Source: Modestobacter sp. VKM Ac-2986 (GTDB taxonomy: Bacteria > Actinomycetota > Actinomycetes > Mycobacteriales > Geodermatophilaceae). From it: 64,000 nucleotides of DNA. The notes below the pieces were generated by a model. That model had not been told where the DNA came from, ran no database searches, and worked only from the letters and a program-made list of their open reading frames with translations. Location of the stretch: positions 186,001 to 250,000 of the forward strand of contig NZ_JAPVBH010000002.1 in the NCBI RefSeq assembly GCF_026967795.1, in the 5' to 3' direction. Below, piece by piece: positions 3,794 to 14,528 of this stretch; within the stretch, counting starts at the first letter, position 1; every line of letters begins with the position of its first letter. A program made the translations under genes and the position numbers.

Positions 3794-6535
3794 CTAGTGC
3801 GCCGCGTCGTCCCAGGTCGTGCCGAAGCCGACGGAGACCTCCATGGCCACCGACAGTTGGGCAGCACCCGCCATCTCGCGGCGGACCAGGGTCTCCAGCG
3901 CCTCGTGCTCACCCTCGGCGACCTCGAGCACCAGTTCGTCGTGGACCTGCAGCAGCATCCGCGACCGCAGCCCCTCGTCCGCGATCGCCTTCTCAACCTT
4001 CAGCATGGCGACCTTGATGACGTCGGCGGCTGAGCCCTGGATCGGTGCGTTGAGCGCCATCCGCTCGGCCATCTGCCGCCGCTGCCCGTTGTCGCTGGTC
4101 AGGTCAGGCAGGTAGCGCCGCCGCCCCATCGTCGTCTCGGTGTAGCCGGTCTGCCGGGCGTCGTCGACCACGCCGTCCAGGTAGTCGCGGATCCCGCCGA
4201 AGCGCTCGAAGTAGGCGTGCATCTGCTCCCGGGCCTCCTCGACGGAGATGTTCAGCTGCCCCGACAGCCCGTAGGCGCTCAGCCCGTAGGCCAGCCCGTA
4301 GCTCATCGCCTTGATCCGCCGGCGCATCTCCGGGTCGACCTGCTCGATCGGGATGCCGAACGCCCGGGACGCGACGAAGGAGTGCAGGTCCTCCCCCGAG
4401 GAGAACGCCTCGATCAGGCCGGCGTCCTCGGACAGGTGGGCCATGATCCGCATCTCGATCTGGCTGTAGTCGGCGGTCATCAGCGACTCGTAGCCGGCGC
4501 CGACGACGAAGGCCTGCCGGATGCGGCGGCCCTCCGCGCTGCGGATCGGGATGTTCTGCAGGTTCGGGTCGGTGGAGCTCAGCCGCCCGGTGGCCGCGAT
4601 CGTCTGCTGGAACGTCGTGTGGATCCGGCTGTTGTCGTCGACCATCGGGATCAGCCCGTCGATGACGGTGCGCAGCCGGGTGACGTCGCGGTGCCGCAAC
4701 AGGTGTTCCAAGAACGGGTGCCCGGTGGAGGCCAGCAGCGAGGTCAGCGCGTCGGCGTCGGTGGTGTAGCCGGTCTTGTTCTTCTTCGTCTTGGGCAGGC
4801 CCAGCTCGTCGAACAGCACCGCCTGCAACTGCTTGGGCGAGCCGAGGTTGATCTCCTTGCCGATGACCGCGTAGGCCTCCTGCGCTGCGTCCGCGACCGC
4901 GGTGGCGAACTCCCGCTGCAGCTCGTGCAGGAAGTCCAGGTCCACGGCGATGCCGCGGTGCTCCATCGAGGCCAGCACGCGGGTCAGCGGCAGCTCGATG
5001 TCGGTGAGCAGGTGGTCCCCGCCCTTCTGGCCGAGCACCTGCTCCAGGGCGTCGGAGAGGTCGTTGACCGCCACGGCCTTGAGGACGTCGGCGTGCGCGG
5101 CCTCGGCGGCGACGTCGTCCTCGGTGGGGCCCAGCCCGTCCAGGGTGAGCTGGGCGGCCGGGGCGGCGTCGTCCTTGAGCTCGCGCTTGAGGTAGCGGAC
5201 GGCGAGGTCGGCCAGGTCGAAGGAGCGCTGGCCGGGCGCGGCCAGGTAGGCGGCCAGCGCGGTGTCGCTGGCGATGCCCTGCAGGTCCCAGCCGCGCTCG
5301 AACACCGCCAGCAGCGGGCCCTTGACGTCGTGCACGATCTTCGGCCGGGCCGGGTCGCGCAGCCAGGCCGCCAGCGCCTGCTCGTCGGCGGGGTCGAGCG
5401 CCGGCCCCAGGTCGACGAAGGTGGCGTGGTCGTCGGCGGCGGCCAGTGCCAGGCCGGTCAGCTCGCCCACGCCGCGGCCCCAGGTGCCGCGGAAGACGAC
5501 ACCGGTGTGCCCGGTGCGGGCGTGCGCGTCCAGCCACTCGCCCAAGGCGCCGGGGGCGACCACGTCGGCGGTGACGTCGAAGCCGCCGTCGACCTCGGGC
5601 TCGGGGGTGGCCAGGGTGGCGAACAGCCGGTCGCGGAGCACCCGGAACTGCAGGTTGTCGAAGAGGGTGTGCACCTCGTTGCGGTCCCAGGGCTGGACGG
5701 CGAGGTCCTGCGGGCCCAGCTCCAGCGGCACGTGCCGGTCCAGCTCGGTGAGCCGGCGGTTCTGCATCACCTGGGACAGGTGCTCGCGCAGCTTCTCCCC
5801 CACCTTGCCCTTGACCGTGTCGACCTGGTCGACCAGCGCGTCGAGGGAGCCGTACTCGCGCACCCACTTGGCGGCGGTCTTCTCCCCCACGCTCGGGATG
5901 GAGGGCAGGTTGTCACTCGGGTCGCCGCGCAGCGCGGCGAAGTCCGGGTACTGGGTCGGGGTCAGGCCGTACTTGGTCTCGACCTCCTCCGGGGTGAACC
6001 GGGTCAGGTCGGACACGCCCTTGCGCGGGTACAGCACGGTGACGTGGTCGTTGACCAGCTGCAGCGCGTCGCGGTCACCGGTGCAGATGGCCACGTCCAT
6101 GCCCTGCTCGACCGCCTGCACGGTGAGGGTGGCGATGACGTCGTCGGCCTCGTAGTTCTCCGCGGTGATCACCGGCACGTGCAGCGCACCCAGGACCTCC
6201 TGCACGAGGCTGACCTGGCCCCGGAAGTCCGTCGGGGACTCCGACCGGTTGGCCTTGTAGTCGGCGAAGATCTCGCTGCGGAAGGTCTTCCGGCTGACGT
6301 CGAAGGCGACCGCCAGGTGCGTGGGCTGCTCGTCGCGCAGCACGTTGATCAGCATCGAGGTGAAGCCGTAGACGGCGTTCGTCGGCTGACCGGTGGTGGT
6401 CGAGAAGTTCTCCACCGGCAGGGCGAAGAAGGCCCGGTAGGCCAGCGAGTGGCCGTCGAGCAGCAGCAGCCGCGGGCGGGCGCCGTCGGCGCTGGCGGCG
6501 GCGGTGGACTGGGGGGCGGCGACCGGAGCGGACAT
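3794..6535 (-). CDS. polA: DNA polymerase I
   Basis: 913-residue polymerase for repair and Okazaki-fragment processing. Domains: N-terminal 5'-3' exonuclease (about residues 20-300; LLLLDGHSLAYRAFFALP, AFDVSRKTFRSE), a degenerate 3'-5' exonuclease-like domain (about 325-500), and the polymerase domain with motif A ADYSQIEMRIMAH (about 689), the O-helix RRRIKAMSYGLAYG, and motif C LLQVHDELVLEV (about 861). The middle domain lacks the first DxE metal motif, so proofreading is probably absent, as in mycobacterial and Taq enzymes. The ATG at 6535 has TAGGAT 8 bases before it; the open frame continues to 6616, but the extra residues are not conserved. Divergent from the thioesterase gene at 6607. 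Confidence 0.98.
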   Translation of the reverse strand: MSAPVAAPQSTAAASADGARPRLLLLDGHSLAYRAFFALPVENFSTTTGQPTNAVYGFTSMLINVLRDEQPTHLAVAFDVSRKTFRSEIFADYKANRSESPTDFRGQVSLVQEVLGALHVPVITAENYEADDVIATLTVQAVEQGMDVAICTGDRDALQLVNDHVTVLYPRKGVSDLTRFTPEEVETKYGLTPTQYPDFAALRGDPSDNLPSIPSVGEKTAAKWVREYGSLDALVDQVDTVKGKVGEKLREHLSQVMQNRRLTELDRHVPLELGPQDLAVQPWDRNEVHTLFDNLQFRVLRDRLFATLATPEPEVDGGFDVTADVVAPGALGEWLDAHARTGHTGVVFRGTWGRGVGELTGLALAAADDHATFVDLGPALDPADEQALAAWLRDPARPKIVHDVKGPLLAVFERGWDLQGIASDTALAAYLAAPGQRSFDLADLAVRYLKRELKDDAAPAAQLTLDGLGPTEDDVAAEAAHADVLKAVAVNDLSDALEQVLGQKGGDHLLTDIELPLTRVLASMEHRGIAVDLDFLHELQREFATAVADAAQEAYAVIGKEINLGSPKQLQAVLFDELGLPKTKKNKTGYTTDADALTSLLASTGHPFLEHLLRHRDVTRLRTVIDGLIPMVDDNSRIHTTFQQTIAATGRLSSTDPNLQNIPIRSAEGRRIRQAFVVGAGYESLMTADYSQIEMRIMAHLSEDAGLIEAFSSGEDLHSFVASRAFGIPIEQVDPEMRRRIKAMSYGLAYGLSAYGLSGQLNISVEEAREQMHAYFERFGGIRDYLDGVVDDARQTGYTETTMGRRRYLPDLTSDNGQRRQMAERMALNAPIQGSAADVIKVAMLKVEKAIADEGLRSRMLLQVHDELVLEVAEGEHEALETLVRREMAGAAQLSVAMEVSVGFGTTWDDAAH

Positions 6536-6543
6536 CGCCCTCG

Positions 6544-6549
6544 ATCCTA
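6544..6549 (-). promoter_or_regulatory. polA -10 box
   Basis: TAGGAT on the minus strand ending 8 bases before the polA ATG, so the 5' leader would be nil or very short. Confidence 0.5.
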
Positions 6550-6594
6550 TGTGCGGGGTACGACCGTCCGGGCCGCGCGCGCCCCCGCGCTGGC

Positions 6595-6600
6595 TACGGT
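6595..6600 (+). promoter_or_regulatory. Leaderless -10 box for the PaaI thioesterase
   Basis: TACGGT followed by a 6-base spacer and GTG at 6607; no ribosome-binding site. Typical actinobacterial leaderless layout. Confidence 0.6.
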
Positions 6601-6606
6601 GCCCCG

Positions 6607-7011
6607 GTGACCACACCCCGTCCGGACTGGCTGCCGTCGATGACCGGCCCGCTCGACAGCAAGCTCGGCATCGAGATCGTCGACTGGGACCCCGACCGGC
6701 TGGTCGGCACGATGCCCGTGGCGGGCAACGAACAGCCCTTCGGCCTGCTGCACGGCGGGGCGACCTGCGTGCTGGCCGAGAGCCTCGGGTCGGTGGCCGG
6801 GCTGCTGCACGCCGGCCCCGGCGGCGGCGTCGTGGGCATCGAGCTGTCCGCCAGCCACCTGCGCGCGGCCTCCGGCGGGGTCGTCACGGCCGTGTGCACC
6901 CCGGTGCACCGCGGGCGCACCCTGGCCACCTTCCTGATCGCCGTCTCCGACGACGCCGGGCGGCCCACCGCGAGCCTCCGGCTCACCTGTCTGCTCCGCC
7001 CGGCCCGCTGA
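6607..7011 (+). CDS. PaaI-family hotdog-fold thioesterase
   Basis: 134-residue single hotdog-domain protein that hydrolyses acyl-CoA thioesters, often aromatic ones (family knowledge). The catalytic-loop signature FGLLHGGATCVLAESLGS is visible at about residues 40-57, with the central GVVGIELSASHLRAA strand after it. The length is normal for PaaI/YdiI proteins. The GTG at 6607 is chosen because TACGGT ends six bases upstream and no Shine-Dalgarno is present, fitting a leaderless transcript; the first residues (TTPRPDW) are plausible. Divergent from polA with 71 bases between starts; the liv operon follows after 131 bases. The physiological substrate is unknown. Confidence 0.88.
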   Translation: MTTPRPDWLPSMTGPLDSKLGIEIVDWDPDRLVGTMPVAGNEQPFGLLHGGATCVLAESLGSVAGLLHAGPGGGVVGIELSASHLRAASGGVVTAVCTPVHRGRTLATFLIAVSDDAGRPTASLRLTCLLRPAR

Positions 7012-7092
7012 CGACCGGTCGTGCACGACGGGTCGGCTGCCACGTCGGCGTGTCGCAGAAGGGTCACGACGTGTCCCTGCTGGTCGATGCCC

Positions 7093-7110
7093 GTAACAGG
7101 GGTGGGTTAC
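7093..7110. promoter_or_regulatory. Inverted repeat GTAAC-N8-GTTAC before livH
   Basis: 5-bp dyad GTAAC / GTTAC, 33 bases upstream of livH. Its right arm overlaps TACTGT (7108-7113), a possible -10 box, so a repressor bound here could block livHMGF transcription (inference). Confidence 0.35.
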
Positions 7111-7142
7111 TGTCCCGGCTCAACCAACGGCTGGGAGGTCGA

Positions 7143-8513
7143 GTGACGCACGCGCCGCAGCGCGCCCGAGGGCGCGGTGAGGCCAGCACGGCAGGCAGAG
7201 GACAGGTGGGCACGTCCGCCCGCCGACGCCCGTCCCGGTGGCTCCCGGGCCGCCGACCGCTGGTCCTGACCCTGCTCCTCGCCGCCTTCACCATGGCGCT
7301 GGCCATGCTCATGCCGGGCGTCGCCTCGGCCGCGAACGAGGCGGTCACCGGCACCCTGCAGACCAGCCGCAGCGGCCCGATCGCCGGCGTCCCGGTGACC
7401 GTCGAGACCGCCGCCGGCGACCCGGTCGACACCGCCGAGACCGACGAGGACGGCCGGTTCTCCGTCCCGGTCCCCGGGCCCGGCGAGTACGAGGTCACCA
7501 TCGACCCCGAGGCGCTGCCCGACGGCGTGGAGCTCGGCGAGCGGGGTGAGTCGCTCACCGTCACCGTCGGACCCAACCGCGCCCAGCCGGTGCTCTTCGG
7601 CCTGGCCGACGGCACGTCCAACGCCGGTGGCGGGTCCGTCGAGGCCGTCCAGCTGCTCGTCGACGGCATCCGCTTCGGCCTGCTGATCGCCGTCTGCGCG
7701 GTCGGCCTCTCGCTGATCTACGGCACCACGGGGCTGACCAACTTCGCCCACGGCGAGCTGGTCACCATCGGCGCCGTCGTCGCCTGGTACATCAACGTCC
7801 AGGGGGGCATCCCGCTCATCCCGGCCACGATCATCGCGATGATCGTGGGTGCGGCCGTCGGCGCGCTCAACGAGCTCGCCATCTGGCGGCCGCTGCGCCG
7901 CCGGGGCACCGGCCTGGTAGCGGCACTGGTGGTCTCCATCGGCCTGTCGATGCTGCTGCGCTACCTGGTCCAGATCGTCTACGGCGGGTTCTCCAGCCCG
8001 TACGCGGACTTCCAGACCCAGCGCACGATCGACTACGGCGTCTTCACCATGACCAACCGCTCGCTCGCCTCGATCGTCATCTCGGTGGTCGTCCTGGTGC
8101 TGGTCGCGCTCATGCTGCAGCGCACCGCGATCGGCAAGGCCATGCGCGCGGTCGCCGACAACCGCGACCTCGCCGCCTCCTCGGGGATCGACGTCAACCG
8201 CGTGATCCTCGTCGTCTGGATGATGGGCGGGGCGCTGGCCACCCTGGGTGGTGTGCTCCTCGGCCTGTCCGACCAGGTCCAGTGGGACATGGGCTTCCGC
8301 CTGCTGCTGCTCATGTTCGCCGGGGTCACCCTCGGTGGCCTGGGCACCGCCTACGGCGCCCTCGTCGGCAGCCTCATCGTCGGTGTGTTCGTGCAGATGT
8401 CCACCCTCGTCATCCCCAGTGACGTGAAGTACGTCGGAGGGCTCCTTCTGTTGATCGTCATCCTCGTTCTGCGGCCCCAGGGCATCCTGGGCAGCCGGGC
8501 CCGGATCGGCTGA
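7143..8513 (+). CDS. livH: Branched-chain amino acid/amide ABC transporter permease LivH with extra exported N-terminal domain
   Basis: 456-residue membrane permease of the LivH/UrtB type. Residues 1-60 hold an Arg-rich start and a signal-like hydrophobic segment (LVLTLLLAAFTMALAML) ending in an AxA-like site (GVASA). Residues about 62-160 resemble a carboxypeptidase-regulatory/Ig-like beta-sandwich (VTGTL, GVPVTVETAAGDPV, TDEDGRFSVPVPGPGEYEVT). The LivH core follows, with SLIYGTTGLTNFAHGE and LGGLGTAYGALVGS. LivH proteins are normally about 290-310 residues, so the roughly 150-residue extension is unusual. The GTG at 7143 follows GGGAGG at good spacing and is the first start giving a signal sequence. 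First gene of livHMGF; livM starts 4 bases after its stop. Confidence 0.92.
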   Translation: MTHAPQRARGRGEASTAGRGQVGTSARRRPSRWLPGRRPLVLTLLLAAFTMALAMLMPGVASAANEAVTGTLQTSRSGPIAGVPVTVETAAGDPVDTAETDEDGRFSVPVPGPGEYEVTIDPEALPDGVELGERGESLTVTVGPNRAQPVLFGLADGTSNAGGGSVEAVQLLVDGIRFGLLIAVCAVGLSLIYGTTGLTNFAHGELVTIGAVVAWYINVQGGIPLIPATIIAMIVGAAVGALNELAIWRPLRRRGTGLVAALVVSIGLSMLLRYLVQIVYGGFSSPYADFQTQRTIDYGVFTMTNRSLASIVISVVVLVLVALMLQRTAIGKAMRAVADNRDLAASSGIDVNRVILVVWMMGGALATLGGVLLGLSDQVQWDMGFRLLLLMFAGVTLGGLGTAYGALVGSLIVGVFVQMSTLVIPSDVKYVGGLLLLIVILVLRPQGILGSRARIG

Positions 8514-8517
8514 CGCC

Positions 8518-9516
8518 ATGTCCGAGCTCCTCGACGCGTTCGCGATCGCCGGCAAGGCGTTCTTCGGCTTCCAGGCGATCTTCTTCGCCCTGCTGGCCAT
8601 CGGCATCAACGTGCACTTCGGCTACACCGGGCTGCTGAACTTCGGGCAGATCGCCTTCGCGATGCTCGGCGGCTTCGGCATCGCCATCTCGGTGAGCATG
8701 TGGGGCCTGCCCTTCTGGGTCGGCGTCCTCGTGGGTGTGGCCGCCGCCGTCGTCCTGGCGCTGCTGCTGGGTCTGCCGACCCTGCGGCTGCGCGCGGACT
8801 ACCTGAGCATCGTCACCATCGCCGCCGCGGAGGGCCTGCGCCTGCTCTTCCGCTCGGTCTCGGCCACGCCGGTGACCGGTGGCACCCGGGGCCTGTCGGC
8901 GTTCAACGCCGACTTCATCAACCTGGCCCCCTGGGACCCGGCGGGCCGCCACCAGATCCTGGGCACGTCCTGGAGCGGTGGCGAGCTGTGGGTGGCGCTG
9001 ATCGGCTGGCTGCTGGTGACCGTCTTCAGCCTGCTGGTCTGGCAGCTCATGCGCAGCCCCTGGGGCCGGGTGGTCAAGGCCATCCGTGAGGACGAGGACG
9101 CCGTCCGCGCGCTGGGCAAGAACGTCTACGCGTACAAGATGCAGGCCCTGGTGCTGGGCGGAGTGATCGGCGCCTTCGGCGGCATGGTCTACGCCGTGGC
9201 CACCGGCTCGGCGATCCCCGACCAGTACCAGAACGCCAACACCTTCCTGGCCTACGCGGCGCTGATCCTCGGCGGTGCGGCCCGGGTGCTCGGCCCGGTC
9301 ATCGGGTCGATGCTGCTGCTGTTCATCCTGCAGTTCGCCGACACGGGCCTCCGGGCGCTGATCGACAACGGCATCATCCCCGAGGCGCTGCTGTCCTCCA
9401 CCGACGTGGCGCAGATCCGCTTCGTCCTGGTCGGCCTCGGGCTCATGCTGTTGCTGGTGTTCCGACCGCAGGGCATCTTCGGTGACCGACGAGAGGTGAT
9501 GCTCGATGCCCGCTGA
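8518..9516 (+). CDS. livM: Branched-chain amino acid/amide ABC transporter permease LivM
   Basis: 332-residue second permease subunit, with about eight to ten hydrophobic helices. Family marks are HFGYTGLLNFGQIAFAMLGG near the N-terminus, the long TLRLRADYLSIVTIAAAE segment, and the cytoplasmic loop VVKAIREDEDAVRALGKN that contacts the ATPase. It pairs with LivH to form the membrane pore. The ATG at 8518 lies 4 bases after the livH stop, and its end overlaps the livG start by 11 bases, so all four genes are probably translated from one mRNA. Confidence 0.95.
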   Translation: MSELLDAFAIAGKAFFGFQAIFFALLAIGINVHFGYTGLLNFGQIAFAMLGGFGIAISVSMWGLPFWVGVLVGVAAAVVLALLLGLPTLRLRADYLSIVTIAAAEGLRLLFRSVSATPVTGGTRGLSAFNADFINLAPWDPAGRHQILGTSWSGGELWVALIGWLLVTVFSLLVWQLMRSPWGRVVKAIREDEDAVRALGKNVYAYKMQALVLGGVIGAFGGMVYAVATGSAIPDQYQNANTFLAYAALILGGAARVLGPVIGSMLLLFILQFADTGLRALIDNGIIPEALLSSTDVAQIRFVLVGLGLMLLLVFRPQGIFGDRREVMLDAR

Positions 9517-10567
9517 CCCGTCAGCGCACGGCGCCCACGCGGCGCGGCCCGAGGAGCTGTCCACCGCCCAGGCCGCGGCCGCCCTCCCGGGCACCGCCAC
9601 GGCCGGCCGGCCCGCTCCCCAGCGGCTGGCCCAGGCCGCCCTCAAGGACCTCCCCTGGGAGGTCGGGGTGGCCAAGCCCGACCCGGCGATCGTCGTCGAC
9701 GGCGTGACCCGCGTCTTCGGCGGCCTCACCGCCGTCTCGGTCGACCACCTGGAGATCCAGCGCGGCGGCATCACCGGCCTGATCGGGCCCAACGGTGCCG
9801 GCAAGACCACGCTGTTCAACCTGATGACCGGCTTCGACCAGCCCAACACCGGCACCTGGTCCTTCGACGGCAAGGACCTCGGCAAGCTGGCCCCCCACCA
9901 GGTGGCCCGGCTCGGCGTGGTCCGCACCTTCCAGCTGACCAAGGCGCTGTCCCGGCTCACCGTGCTGCAGAACATGCTGCTCGGTGCGCAGGGCCAGCGC
10001 GGCGAGGGCTTCCTGCGGGCCCTGGTGCCCGGCGGGTGGCGCGCCCAGGAGAAGGAGAACACCGAGAAGGCGATGGACCTGCTGCGGCGGTTCAAGCTCG
10101 ACGCCAAGAAGGACGACTTCGCCGGCATCCTCTCCGGCGGTCAGCGCAAGCTGCTGGAGATGGCACGCGCGCTGATGAGCGACCCCAAGGTCGTCATGCT
10201 CGACGAGCCGATGGCCGGGGTGAACCCCGCGCTGACCCAGAGCCTGCTCGGGCACGTCAAGGACCTCCGCGAGGAGGGCATGACGGTCATCTTCGTCGAG
10301 CACGACATGGACGTCGTCCGGGACATCAGCGACTGGGTCGTCGTCATGGCCGCCGGCAAGGTCATCGCCGAGGGCCCGCCGGAGTCGGTGTCGCAGAACC
10401 AGGCCGTCGTCGACGCCTACCTGGGCGCCCACCACGACGCCCCGCTGACCGTCGAGGAGGAGGACCGCGTCCTCGCCGAGGTGGAGGCGGAGATCGCCCG
10501 CGAGGAGCAGGGCCCGCCGCGGGTCCCGCACGCGAACCGCAGTGACGAGAAGGACGGTCTGGTGTGA
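9506..10567 (+). CDS. livG: Branched-chain amino acid/amide ABC transporter ATP-binding protein LivG
   Basis: 353-residue ATPase. Walker A GPNGAGKTT, signature LSGGQRKLLEMARAL, Walker B VVMLDEPMAG and the EHDMDVV His-switch are all present, with the LivG-type insert between Q-loop and signature. It has about 65 additional N-terminal residues (Ala/Pro-rich) and about 45 C-terminal residues beyond the usual 250-260. The ATG at 9506 lies inside the end of livM; a later start would remove the extension but lacks the overlap. It powers the LivHM pore together with LivF. Confidence 0.94.
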   Translation: MPADPSAHGAHAARPEELSTAQAAAALPGTATAGRPAPQRLAQAALKDLPWEVGVAKPDPAIVVDGVTRVFGGLTAVSVDHLEIQRGGITGLIGPNGAGKTTLFNLMTGFDQPNTGTWSFDGKDLGKLAPHQVARLGVVRTFQLTKALSRLTVLQNMLLGAQGQRGEGFLRALVPGGWRAQEKENTEKAMDLLRRFKLDAKKDDFAGILSGGQRKLLEMARALMSDPKVVMLDEPMAGVNPALTQSLLGHVKDLREEGMTVIFVEHDMDVVRDISDWVVVMAAGKVIAEGPPESVSQNQAVVDAYLGAHHDAPLTVEEEDRVLAEVEAEIAREEQGPPRVPHANRSDEKDGLV

Positions 10568-11415
10568 GCGAGCCCCTGTTCGAGGTCGACGAGACCGGCG
10601 AGGACGTCACCCGCGCCCAGACCGTGGCGACCGGTGAGCTGTCCCCCGCCGAGAAGGCGGCCACCCGCGAGGAGCACCTCAAGCTCGCCGAGGGCGCGCT
10701 GGTGCGTGCCGACGACCTGGTCGCCGGCTACGTCCCCGGGGTCAACATCCTGCGGGGCTGTGACTTCTACCTGCAGGACGGCGAGCTCGTCGGCATCATC
10801 GGCCCCAACGGTGCCGGCAAGTCGACGCTGCTGAAGACGCTGTTCGGGCTCATCCCGGTGCGCTCGGGCGGGGTGACGCTGCGCGGCGAGTCCATCACCG
10901 GCGCCCCGGCGCACCAGCTGGTGTCCATGGGCGTGGGCTACGTGCCGCAGAACAACAACGTGTTCCCCTCCCTCACCATCGAGGAGAACATGCAGATGGG
11001 CGTGTACCTGCGCCCGAAGTCGTTCAAGGAGCGGTTCGACTACGTCATCGACCTGTTCCCGCTGCTCGGTGAGCGGCGCAAGGGCAAGGCCGGGTCGCTG
11101 TCCGGCGGTGAGCGCCAGATGGTGGCGATGGGCCGCGCGCTGATGATGGACCCGTCGGTGCTGCTGCTCGACGAGCCCTCGGCGGGCCTGTCCCCCGCCT
11201 ACCAGGACGAGGTGTTCATCCGCTGCAGGCGGATCAACGCCACCGGCGTCTCGATCATCATGGTCGAGCAGAACGCCCGCCGGTGCCTGCAGATCTGCGA
11301 CCGCGGCTACGTGCTCGACCAGGGCCGTAACGCCTACACCGACACCGGCCAGTCGTTGATGAACGACCCCAAGGTCATCGAGCTGTACCTGGGCACCCTG
11401 GCCAAGGCCAAGTGA
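10564..11415 (+). CDS. livF: Branched-chain amino acid/amide ABC transporter ATP-binding protein LivF
   Basis: 283-residue second ATPase. Walker A GPNGAGKSTLLKTLFGL, LivF-type VPQNNNVFPSLTIEENM, signature LSGGERQMVAMGRALM, Walker B VLLLDEPSAGLSP and the VEQNARRCL switch are visible. About 45 acidic N-terminal residues precede the usual start. The GTG at 10564 overlaps the livG stop in a GTGA, showing translational coupling. Last gene of livHMGF; a strong hairpin follows the stop. No binding-protein gene follows on this strand; the convergent gene at 12341-13690 fills that role. Confidence 0.94.
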   Translation: MSEPLFEVDETGEDVTRAQTVATGELSPAEKAATREEHLKLAEGALVRADDLVAGYVPGVNILRGCDFYLQDGELVGIIGPNGAGKSTLLKTLFGLIPVRSGGVTLRGESITGAPAHQLVSMGVGYVPQNNNVFPSLTIEENMQMGVYLRPKSFKERFDYVIDLFPLLGERRKGKAGSLSGGERQMVAMGRALMMDPSVLLLDEPSAGLSPAYQDEVFIRCRRINATGVSIIMVEQNARRCLQICDRGYVLDQGRNAYTDTGQSLMNDPKVIELYLGTLAKAK

Positions 11416-11501: not shown

Positions 11502-11930
11502 TCAGCCCAGCACGGCCCACGCGCTGGCCGCCACGTTCGCGGTGGCGGCGGCGACCCGCAGCGTGTCCGCGCGCAGCAGCCCGGCGTAGGCGGCCGGGTC
11601 GAAGCCGTCGGCCAGCTGCCGGTGCCGGGGCACGGCGAGCAGCGCGGTGACCGCCAGGACCACGGCCAGGCACGCGGCGCTGACCAGCACCCCGGCCAGG
11701 GAGACGCCGTCGGGCCGGTCGAGCAGCAGCCAGCCGGTGGTGACCAGCTGACCGGCGAACAGCGGCCCGACCACGCGTGAGACCAGCCGGGAGTGGCTCG
11801 CCTCGTAGGCCGCCGAGGCCGCGGCCGGCACCGCGGTGAACTGCGGGTAGACCAGCACGCGCACGGTCCACTGGAAGCCGGCGTACCCGCCCACGAGGAG
11901 CAGGTGGGCGACGGCCAGTCCGCTGGTCAC
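11502..11930 (-). CDS. Small integral membrane protein, unknown function
   Basis: 142-residue protein with about four hydrophobic segments (LAVAHLLLVGGYAGFQW, VVGPLFAGQLVTTGWLLL, VLVSAACLAVVLAVTALLAV, VAAATANVAASAWAVL) and a conserved-looking RVLVYPQFTAVP loop after the first. The shape resembles small four-helix actinobacterial membrane proteins of unknown role; I cannot assign a function. The GTG at 11930 overlaps the stop of the upstream gene in a GTGA, so the pair is co-translated. The pair lies inside the liv region between livF and the binding-protein gene, but nothing links it directly to transport. Confidence 0.7.
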   Translation of the reverse strand: MTSGLAVAHLLLVGGYAGFQWTVRVLVYPQFTAVPAAASAAYEASHSRLVSRVVGPLFAGQLVTTGWLLLDRPDGVSLAGVLVSAACLAVVLAVTALLAVPRHRQLADGFDPAAYAGLLRADTLRVAAATANVAASAWAVLG

Positions 11931-12253
11931 CGGCGGCCCGGGGACTTGGCGTGCTTGCCCCGCCACTGCAGGCTCTGCGCGTCGAGCCGGCGCAGCAGCG
12001 GGTCGCCCTCGGCCGCGATGCGCTCGGCCAGCCCCACCGCGGTGTGCAGCTGTGCGTCGTCCAGCTGCGCGAAGGCCGGGGAACGGCGGCGGTCCAGCAC
12101 GTCGTACCAGCGGCCGCCGACCGCGTGGTCGAGCACGATCCGGCCGAAGCAGTGGTCGGCGGTCACCACCCACCCCTCGGCACGGGCCCGGCGGGGCAGC
12201 TGGTCGAGCACCAGCTCGCGGTAGCGGGCCAGCAGGAGCGCACGGTCGTCCAC
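11927..12253 (-). CDS. Conserved hypothetical protein (108 residues)
   Basis: 108-residue soluble protein rich in Arg, Leu and Asp: ARYRELVLDQLPRRARAEGW, then VVTADHCFGRIVLDHAVG, RWYDVLDR, and a C-terminal helix SLQWRGKHAKSPGRR. The HCFGRIVLD and LRRLDAQSLQWRGK patterns look conserved and I associate them with uncharacterised actinobacterial proteins; no function is known to me. The ATG at 12253 starts a two-gene unit with the membrane protein downstream (GTGA overlap). The strong 17-bp hairpin at 12281-12319 separates it from the binding-protein gene upstream on the same strand, so it should have its own promoter in the short gap. Confidence 0.68.
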   Translation of the reverse strand: MDDRALLLARYRELVLDQLPRRARAEGWVVTADHCFGRIVLDHAVGGRWYDVLDRRRSPAFAQLDDAQLHTAVGLAERIAAEGDPLLRRLDAQSLQWRGKHAKSPGRR

Positions 12254-12280
12254 CCGGGAGAGTCTGCCCTCCGCACAGCA

Positions 12281-12319
12281 CTGCGGCCCGGCACCCCGGG
12301 GAGGGGTGCCGGGCCGCAG
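12281..12319 (-). terminator. Strong terminator of the binding-protein gene
   Basis: Perfect 17-bp stem (12281-12297 with 12303-12319; arm ends CTGCGG and CCGCAG) and a 5-base loop. Lies 21 bases after the stop of the minus-strand binding-protein gene. One of the strongest hairpins in the window. Confidence 0.85.
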
Positions 12320-12340: not shown

Positions 12341-13690
12341 TCAGCGCTGGGGCCCCACGCCCTGGGTGTTGAGACCCTGGATGATCCGCGAGGACTCCTC
12401 GAACCCGATGACAACGATGCCGTCGGGGGCGAAGGTGGTCATCTGCTGGACCTCGGCGTCGTAGTTGGCCGCCTGCGGGTCGTAGACGACCGTCTGGATC
12501 GAGTCCTCGGACAGACCGCCGGCCACCAGGTTGTTCTTGGTGTTCTCCGCCAGGCCCGTGCCGTACGGGTCGTTGGTGGCGAGGATGCCGACGGTGTTGT
12601 TGCCGTCCTGCAGGATCAGGTCCGACAGCGCGGTGGCCTGCAGCGTGTCCGGGGGCGCGGTGCGGAAGTACAGCCCCTGGTCGGCGTACTCGGTGAACTG
12701 GTCGGAGGTGTTCGCCGGGGAGATCTGCATGACGCCGGCCTGGGTGATCGTGTCGATCACGGTCAGGCTGACGCCGGAGGAGGCGGCACCGACGATCGCG
12801 TTCACACCGGACTGCAGCAGCCGGTCGACGGTCTGGGTGGCGGTGTCGGTGGAGGCGTCACCGGAGTCACCGGTCACCAGGGTGACGGGCTTGCCGAGCA
12901 CACCGCCGGCGGCGTTGACGTCGTTGATCGCCAGCTGGACGCCGGCGACCTCCGGCGGGCCGAGGAAGGCCAGGTTGCCGGTCTCGGGCAGCAGGGTGCC
13001 GATGGTCAGCGGGGTGTCGCTGGCGGCACCCGCGGGGACCGGCGCGGGGCCGGCCTCGGTGGCGGCGTTGGCCTCGTCACCGGCGATGACGAACTCGGTC
13101 TTCGAGTCGTCGAGGGCGTTGTCGGTGCCGAACTGCAGCAGACCGAAGCTCGCCTGGGCGGGCTCACCGGCCTCGGCGAAGCTCAGCGGGCCGGAGATGC
13201 CGTCGTAGTCGACGTCCCCACCGGCGTTGATGATCGCCAGGCAGGCGGCGAAGTCGGAGCACTTGTCGCCGCCCACGGTCAGGGCGTTGACGTACGGGCC
13301 GAAGGTGCGGGCGTCGGTCGACCCGGCCGACTGGGCGGCCATGGCCACCAGCATCACGGCGTCGTAGGACTCACCGGCGTAGTTGAAGTCCTTGAGCGCG
13401 GGGTCGACCTCCTTGAGGCGGTCGGTGAACTCCGGGCCGAGCTCGGTGAGGGGCGTGGTGCCCTTCATGCCGGCCAGGGCGCCGTCGGCCTGGAAGTCCT
13501 CACCCAGGGCGTTGCCCATGTTGCCGTCGGTGCCGTAGATGTTGACCTGCTTCGCGCCGCCGCTGGCTGCACCACCGGTGCTGCCCGCGGAGCCGCTGGC
13601 GGCGTCGTCGCTGCTGCCGCCACAGGCGCTCAGCGCGAGGAGGGCTGCGCCGGACAGGGCGGTGGCGCGGACGATCGTGCCTGTGCGCAT
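12341..13690 (-). CDS. LivK-like ABC substrate-binding lipoprotein, circularly permuted
   Basis: 449-residue exported binding protein. Residues 1-23 form a lipoprotein signal ending LSAC (Cys23 lipidated), then a Ser/Gly linker. Residues about 47-208 match the C-terminal half of LivK-type proteins (VNIYGTDGNMGNALGEDF, FNYAGESYDAVMLVAMAA, DYDGISGPLSFAEAGEP). A Pro/Ala linker (209-224) leads into residues 225-449, which match the normal N-terminal half (PLTIGTLLPETGNLAFLGPP, VNAAGGVLGKPVTLVTGDSG, VMQISPANTS, DPYGTGLAENTKNNL) and end GFEESSRIIQGLNTQGVGPQ, where a normal protein would continue into the YGTDGN strand. So the two halves are swapped. The ATG at 13690 has GGGAG upstream; a TTG one codon earlier is less likely. 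Expected to deliver substrate to LivHMGF. Confidence 0.93.
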   Translation of the reverse strand: MRTGTIVRATALSGAALLALSACGGSSDDAASGSAGSTGGAASGGAKQVNIYGTDGNMGNALGEDFQADGALAGMKGTTPLTELGPEFTDRLKEVDPALKDFNYAGESYDAVMLVAMAAQSAGSTDARTFGPYVNALTVGGDKCSDFAACLAIINAGGDVDYDGISGPLSFAEAGEPAQASFGLLQFGTDNALDDSKTEFVIAGDEANAATEAGPAPVPAGAASDTPLTIGTLLPETGNLAFLGPPEVAGVQLAINDVNAAGGVLGKPVTLVTGDSGDASTDTATQTVDRLLQSGVNAIVGAASSGVSLTVIDTITQAGVMQISPANTSDQFTEYADQGLYFRTAPPDTLQATALSDLILQDGNNTVGILATNDPYGTGLAENTKNNLVAGGLSEDSIQTVVYDPQAANYDAEVQQMTTFAPDGIVVIGFEESSRIIQGLNTQGVGPQR

Positions 13691-13916: not shown

Positions 13917-14528
13917 TCAGGAGCCGGCCGGGGACGCGGCGTCGTCGGCCGGCGTCTCGGTGGCCAGGACGGCCTCGGCCAGCGCGCGCATCGAGGTGCG
14001 CTCGTTCATGGCGGTGCGCTGGATCCAGCGGAAGGCCTCGGCCTCGGTGATGCCGCGCTCGGCCATCAGCCGGCCCTTGGCCTGCTCGATGACCTTGCGC
14101 GCCTCCAGCCGCTCCTTCAGGTCGGCGACCTCGGCGTCCAGGGCGTGCATCTCCTGGAACCGGCCCACCGCGACCTCGATCGCCGGCACCAGGTCGTTCT
14201 TGTTGAACGGCTTCACCAGGTAGGCCATCGCACCGGCGTCACGGGCACGCTCGACCAGCTCGCGCTGGCTGAAGGCGGTCAGCACGATCACCGGGGCGAT
14301 GCGCGCGCCGGCGATCTGCTCGGCGGCGGCGATGCCGTCCAGCACGGGCATCTGGACGTCGAGGACGACGAGGTCGGGGCGCAGCTGCTCGGCCTGGTCG
14401 ACGGCGGCCTGGCCGTCCCCGACCTCGGCGACGACGACGTAGCCCTCTTCCTCGAGCATCTCCTTGAGGTCGAGACGGATGAGGGCCTCGTCCTCGGCGA
14501 TGAGGACCCTGGTCGGTGCGTTGGTCAC
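13917..14528 (-). CDS. pdtaR: ANTAR-domain response regulator PdtaR
   Basis: 203-residue cytoplasmic regulator. N-terminal receiver domain (RVLIAEDEALIRLDL acidic pocket, phospho-acceptor Asp in LVVLDVQMP, switch Thr in VIVLTAFSQ, Lys in YLVKPFNKND) and a C-terminal ANTAR RNA-binding domain (about 135-185; ARKVIEQAKGRLMAERGITE, AFRWIQRTAMNE). It matches the PdtaR (Rv1626) family, which binds dual-hairpin mRNA leaders near start sites (family knowledge). The GTG at 14528 is leaderless: TAGGAT ends six bases upstream. It is divergent from the tRNA, and a 24-bp palindrome lies between. No sensor kinase is adjacent, as usual for this family. Confidence 0.96.
   Translation of the reverse strand: MTNAPTRVLIAEDEALIRLDLKEMLEEEGYVVVAEVGDGQAAVDQAEQLRPDLVVLDVQMPVLDGIAAAEQIAGARIAPVIVLTAFSQRELVERARDAGAMAYLVKPFNKNDLVPAIEVAVGRFQEMHALDAEVADLKERLEARKVIEQAKGRLMAERGITEAEAFRWIQRTAMNERTSMRALAEAVLATETPADDAASPAGS

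Follow-up and report, generated by a model that had tools for sequence, protein, structure and literature searches.

The gene described here encodes a lipoprotein of the LivK/LivJ type in which the two halves have exchanged places, and our analyses confirmed that the protein is a circular permutation of this class of binding protein. It is very probably a natural and functional circular permutant of a LivK/LivJ-type (HAAT, type I) substrate-binding protein (SBP), which most likely serves the neighbouring LivHMGF amino-acid importer as its receptor and would most likely have arisen by tandem duplication in place, fusion and trimming. The gene lies in a stretch of 64,000 nucleotides from Modestobacter sp. 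VKM Ac-2986, hereafter the window, and its parts and neighbours are listed in Table 1.

A LivK-type binding lipoprotein with exchanged halves

Table 1. Features of the permuted gene and of its neighbourhood in the window.
Feature	Coordinates	Strand	Basis or remark
Permuted substrate-binding lipoprotein gene	12341..13690	-	449 aa plus stop, ATG at 13690; single full-length matches in relatives
Signal peptide and lipobox LSAC, Cys23 (residues 1-23; LSAC at 20-23)	13622..13690	-	Sequence; lipobox by eye
Ser/Gly/Ala linker after the Cys (residues 24-46)	13553..13621	-	Sequence; pLDDT <50 for residues 1-45
C-terminal part of LivK-type protein, now first (residues 47-208, KQVNIYGTDGN...)	13067..13552	-	Profile and 4gnr alignments, relatives
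Pro/Ala linker, old C- to N-terminus (residues 209-226, 18 residues)	13013..13066	-	Sequence
N-terminal part of LivK-type protein, now last (residues 227-449)	12344..13012	-	PF13458 profile 1-217
LivH-type permease (PF02653) with extra N-terminal CarboxypepD_reg-like domain	6504..8513	+	True start uncertain
LivM-type permease	8518..9516	+	Family-model matches
LivG-type ATPase	9506..10567	+	Family-model matches
LivF-type ATPase	10564..11415	+	Family-model matches
ANTAR-domain response regulator, upstream of the SBP and a marker of synteny	13917..14528	-	Family models, synteny

Translation bore out the single continuous frame with a lipoprotein signal that the first-pass annotation had described from the letters alone, and the lipobox cysteine is invariant in 14 aligned proteins. 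The proposed order of parts, with the C-terminal LivK-type segment first, then a Pro/Ala linker and the N-terminal segment last, was likewise supported by the PF13458 profile and by rotation against the solved structure 4gnr. The exact borders needed small corrections: the last part opens with PLTIGTLLPETGNLAF, its PLTIG falling at residue 227 and not 225, and it closes with GLNTQGVGPQR, so that the motif GLNTQGVGPQ, given earlier as the precise end, is present but followed by a final Arg.

In its natural order, the protein matches Pfam PF13458 (Peripla_BP_6) over residues 227-447 only, which correspond to positions 1-217 of the 343 in the profile, with 119.6 bits against a Pfam cut-off of 31.7 bits. 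When the protein was rotated in silico (residues 227-448 joined to 49-204), one contiguous match covered profile positions 1-305 and the score rose to 135.2 bits. As the sequence becomes colinear with the profile only once rotated, it is a permuted relative, and thus a non-canonical member, of the HAAT/Peripla_BP_6 family. The comparison with 4gnr gave 83.6 bits (1.5e-22) over chain positions 9-302 for the rotated protein and 73.9 bits (1.3e-19) over positions 3-219 for the natural order. In the rotated alignment, YGTDGN stands opposite VGGDGF of 4gnr; we take this motif to mark the position of the ligand amino-group contact of LivJ (Glu226), in the second lobe. Families matched by the protein were PF13458 and its relatives, PRK15404 (branched-chain amino acids) and the binding models of urea and PQQ systems, with no sugar-binding family among them. 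The best NCBIfam model was a branched-chain amino-acid one, reached with 67.5 of 477 bits and therefore well under its cut-off.

AlphaFold2 predicted a confident fold for the window protein (pLDDT 83.4, pTM 0.82) from a shallow input alignment of 37 rows, namely 23 permuted proteins and 14 half-length fragments of normal relatives, and residues 1-45 were the sole stretch below 50. The model thus gives an ordered fold, in which the closed two-lobe arrangement expected earlier may be realised. Foldseek, which aligns sequentially, placed about 225 columns on LivJ-type structures; the output does not tell which half was aligned, and this number is the size of one half, as expected if one half alone can be matched in order. 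A BFVD fold search returned four partial matches at E <= 0.001, which were uninformative.

The permuted order is conserved at one syntenic locus

We searched the source genome and 58 relatives, 34 of which belong to the same family-level group (f1; 22 of the same genus and 12 others). The permuted order was found, as a single match across both halves, in 32 of these 34 (21/22 same-genus and 11/12 other same-family genomes), a regularity that excludes chance, and the two relatives lacking the permuted gene are drafts 79-80% complete. The first-pass annotation had suggested a search of close relatives for the same order at this locus, and it was found: all 32 f1 relatives with the gene are permuted, none has the normal order at the locus, and normal order was seen there only outside the family. 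Finding it there assists in polarising the change and is not a refutation of the permutation. In the wider scans of the order, class and phylum, four candidates were scored per genome and the counts are consequently lower bounds. The order-wide scan (397 genomes) found the permuted gene in at least 67 of 75 f1 genomes, the source genome included (hand count). The remaining eight contained no close relative in either order, four of them giving a match (best E 1.8e-13) and four nothing at 1e-6, which indicates that the gene is dispensable there.

Using the window genes as probes, we observed a recurring arrangement, pyk - ANTAR regulator - SBP - converging livF, G, M, H - polA, in which pyk and polA were named by eye from sequence and the other neighbours from family models. 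Reading of 48 named loci one by one gave 30 permuted SBPs, 17 normal ones and one cut by a contig end. Two of the permuted loci come from Acidimicrobiales/Acidimicrobiaceae MAGs and the other 28 are of the window type; the latter are Geodermatophilaceae records together with one labelled Bacillus sp. AZ43. This record, titled UNVERIFIED_ORG, has a Geodermatophilaceae-like locus with a permuted SBP and its label is probably wrong. The ANTAR gene lies upstream in all 28 window-type loci, and livF, G, M and H converge on the SBP in 25; of the remainder, L050 and L057 reach the end of their sequence after F or F+G, and at L045 none of the four is present within 1.7 kb. Both pyk and polA are within reach in part of the 28 only.

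The 17 normal-order loci belong to Rhodococcus/Rhodococcoides, Pseudonocardia, Egibacteraceae, Ilumatobacter and other MAGs. In particular, one Rhodococcoides locus (L060) carries the whole pyk-ANTAR-SBP-livFGMH-polA set with its SBP in normal order, and six Rhodococcus loci (L061-L066) have the same arrangement as far as their flanks reach, also with a normal SBP. The normal SBPs of Rhodococcus/Rhodococcoides are 64-66% identical to the window protein in the N-half and 52-58% in the C-half. Permuted SBPs of other groups (L147, L148) have a similar setting with ANTAR and livFGMH. Therefore, permuted and normal SBPs occupy one syntenic position and differ in their internal order.

Other features of the locus were also noted. 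Between the SBP and livF, the minus-strand ORFs at 11502-12281 have no Pfam matches, and one may encode a small membrane protein. The extra CarboxypepD_reg/SdrD_B-like domain of the LivH-type permease (residues about 281-334) precedes the membrane part and is found in many, not all, relatives. A coupling between this domain and the permutation was considered and rejected, as the domain also occurs beside normal-order SBPs (L068, L069, L075, L080).

Wider distribution and two cut points

Beyond f1, the order, class and phylum scans gave single matches in permuted order in groups f16, f13, f39, f41, f49, f68, f81 and f122. Group f16, with genomes of 5-11 Mb, contributed at least 67 genomes with a permuted match (order scan, hand count), and f13 at least one. 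The class and phylum scans found the permuted order in at least 11 of 394 and at least 8 of 396 genomes, respectively, in both cases including the source genome and others already counted. A type B query (see below) matched 47 of 66 genomes in the class of genome G846, and the permuted order accounted for two of these 47, which share a genus code; the permuted form is thus a minority outside f1 and f16. After merging of ORFs with the same last 250 residues, 155 remained, of which 80 were permuted, 73 normal and two partial at contig ends.

In the 26 permuted proteins that were inspected, the cuts fall on either side of one YGTDGN strand-loop of about 20 residues, defining two types. Type A proteins, including the window protein, start just before the Y-x-x-DGN strand and end with GIGPQR or alike; they were found in f1, f13, f16, f39, f41 and f49, and a fragment from f11 (L189) ends in the same way. 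Type B proteins (L058, L078, L149-L151, L154-L156) start after the strand-loop and end inside it, for example with YGTDGNMGNALGENFEAG. AlphaFold2 placed the YGTD strand of the type B protein L078 at its C-terminal end (E454-457) with pLDDT 77.1 and pTM 0.76, the five models spreading widely from 77 to 58. An AGDE..T stretch at the start of the linker, a pattern composed after some of the sequences had been seen, is present in 46 of 65 permuted ORFs of f1/f13/f16, in 0 of the 15 other permuted ORFs and in 0 of the 73 normal ones. One of the Acidimicrobiales MAG genes (L058, 5725-7182) is permuted and has its mid-protein in another frame. Second permuted copies, more diverged and 62-66% identical to the window protein, were seen at L081 (genome G025) and in G106, G152 and G281.

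The permuted form arose more than once

A tree was built from 97 of the 155 ORFs with their halves rejoined. For this sample, the f1/f13 rows were thinned by hand from 56 to 11, the two partial ORFs were left out, near-duplicates among the f16 loci (two) and among the named normal loci (10, nine of them still being present) were omitted, and L058 entered as read, with its frame disturbance unmended. Parsimony applied to the free tree requires five or more state changes to account for the permuted rows, and the starred branches force five; reversions may be among these five.

Approximately unbiased (AU) tests were run on groups that were named after the tree had been seen, except for "all permuted" and "all with the window's cut". 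One common origin was rejected for the permuted proteins as a whole (p = 1.2e-6) and for the type A proteins as a whole (p = 4e-8). On the side of larger groupings, f1/f13 and f16 as one clade were not rejected (p = 0.775) and had a likelihood above that of the free tree. The same holds for non-rejection when the six type B rows were added to this clade (p = 0.316), when the two f68 type B rows were added as well (p = 0.139), and for both type B sets together (p = 0.386). The union of f39/f49 with f41 was borderline (p = 0.0449). From the rejections of single clades, the firm minimum is two origins that made use of the same cut; four or five origins are likely, but this higher number is not firm.

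Function and origin of the permuted protein

The window gene is under purifying selection in both of its halves. NG86 dN/dS values against six relatives were 0.22-0.48 for the whole gene (6/6 pairs), 0.23-0.52 for residues 47-208 and 0.12-0.44 for residues 225-449, while residues 209-224, within the linker, were loose with 0.47 to 2.3, all figures being rough as these high-GC genes offer few synonymous changes. Purifying selection on the gene bears directly on a reading of it as an artefact of assembly or annotation or as a pseudogene in decay, which one draft genome by itself could not exclude. The same order recurs in dozens of independent assemblies, some of them single-contig, and the Rhodococcus locus has the normal order; together with the dN/dS values, this led us to reject an artefact, whose probability we consider negligible, and it answers the earlier concern that the order might come from an assembly rearrangement.

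From the LivHMGF-type genes next to it, and from a branched-chain amino-acid model as its best NCBIfam match, we infer that the permuted SBP is the receptor of this importer. The genome encodes two other HAAT-type binding proteins, both in normal order, and the pairing with LivHMGF is thus based on position. A permuted protein repurposed as an orphan or sensory binding protein, no longer feeding an importer, would fit several observations outside the window: no liv genes accompany the f16 copy L079 (G049) in the 11.5 kb examined, 5 of the 7 f16 genomes tested gave no LivF relative at E <= 1e-70 (150 candidates scored for most), f16 evolves fast, with a branch of 1.02 changes per column, and some f1 genomes hold a second permuted copy, that at L081 having no liv genes nearby. 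The permuted protein need therefore not serve LivHMGF everywhere, and in f16 it may have another role. For the protein described here, we regard such a repurposing as improbable, since the window and 25 of the 28 window-type loci adjoin livF, G, M and H just as the normal-order Rhodococcus gene does.

As to the route, partial loss after a tandem duplication was the suggestion of the first-pass annotation. The model of permutation by duplication (PMC3320104) expects a gene to be doubled in place, fused and then trimmed. Here, the SBP gene would have been duplicated in tandem in place, the two copies would have been fused in frame, and the outer halves would then have been lost with the signal peptide kept. 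The suggestion is plausible in that unfused tandem copies exist at the same locus in another family: at L169 (1933-5369, genome G689), a tandem pair of complete SBP genes in normal order separates ANTAR from livF, and in G526, which shares the genus code, two matches are spaced by about 2.4 kb. Moreover, inspection by eye showed that the linkers of type B and f41/f49 proteins retain, ahead of the N-half, a short Gly/Asp-rich lead-in resembling that of some normal proteins, which would be expected if a second copy were its source. The fused intermediate, with four parts in the order N-C-N-C, was not found among the 155 classified ORFs, which speaks for another route, in which separate half-proteins arose by fission and were fused anew, or two paralogues recombined. 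We think this route rather unlikely in view of the tandem copies just described and because the 155 ORFs include no split genes save two contig-end cuts, bearing in mind that a query with the whole permuted protein favours joined genes.

In the permuted protein, the two-lobed fold is probably retained, with the old ends joined by the 18-residue linker and the new ends lying just before the YGTDGN strand. The lipid anchor would then be attached to the GTDG-bearing segment instead of the native N-terminus. A bolder proposal, which we offer as speculative and on balance doubtful, is that of a recurrent, selected switch of the anchor point: tandem LivK genes at one syntenic actinobacterial locus would have collapsed repeatedly, in four or five events, with the new ends flanking the same YGTDGN strand-loop of about 20 residues (before it in type A, after it in type B) in every permuted protein examined, because an anchor there improves capture or handover.

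Significance and relation to known systems

An SBP with swapped halves that most of the sampled members of one soil-bacterial family retain offers a good natural example of proteins surviving the displacement of their ends. Natural permutations that have counterparts in normal order at the same position, tandem copies in other genomes and repeated origins would be unusually suitable for testing permutation by duplication in an extant family. The finding also bears on the importance of the tether point in binding lipoproteins, a question that the available text of PMC4990184 poses for TpMglB-2 without settling it. In addition, the Pfam profile detects only about half of the permuted SBP. Finally, for the design of biosensors, the cut sites have been pre-tested by evolution.

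The window protein resembles the LivK/LivJ-type proteins (HAAT, PF13458; 4gnr, 1usg) in that both halves align and are contiguous after rotation and that it is a lipoprotein encoded beside livHMGF; it differs from 4gnr and 1usg in having its halves swapped, the native ends fused and new ends before the YGTDGN strand. That the fold superfamily tolerates cutting and permuting is also indicated by laboratory-made proteins, as halves of the Thermotoga ribose-binding protein have been used to engineer permuted binding proteins (PMC9815098, in the part available).

The first-pass annotation knew of no natural example in this family. Indeed, no report of a permuted LivK/HAAT protein was among the matches listed from the open-licence PubMed Central literature; one natural permuted type I binding protein is known already, from another family and with another cut. 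This is TpMglB-2 (Tp0684) of Treponema pallidum, a circularly permuted type I ligand-binding lipoprotein described as "Type Ic / Cluster Bc". According to the available part of its report (PMC4990184), it binds glucose and belongs to the MglB family, its first three N-lobe strands are shifted towards the C-terminus with a fourth hinge crossing added, the moved part is poorly conserved in sequence, and membrane tethering was suggested as a possible reason for the permutation. As far as this description goes, the two proteins share the natural circular permutation of a type I binding lipoprotein. In contrast to TpMglB-2, the window protein belongs to the HAAT family and not to the sugar-binding MglB proteins, both of its halves are clearly homologous, and its cut lies after position 217 of the 343 in PF13458, at the YGTDGN strand and not at the first N-lobe strands. 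Moreover, the permuted HAAT form occurs in several lineages, with two cut points and with normal-order relatives at the same locus. What is new here is thus a different family with different cuts, wide conservation within one bacterial family, normal-order relatives at the locus and recurrence of the permutation.
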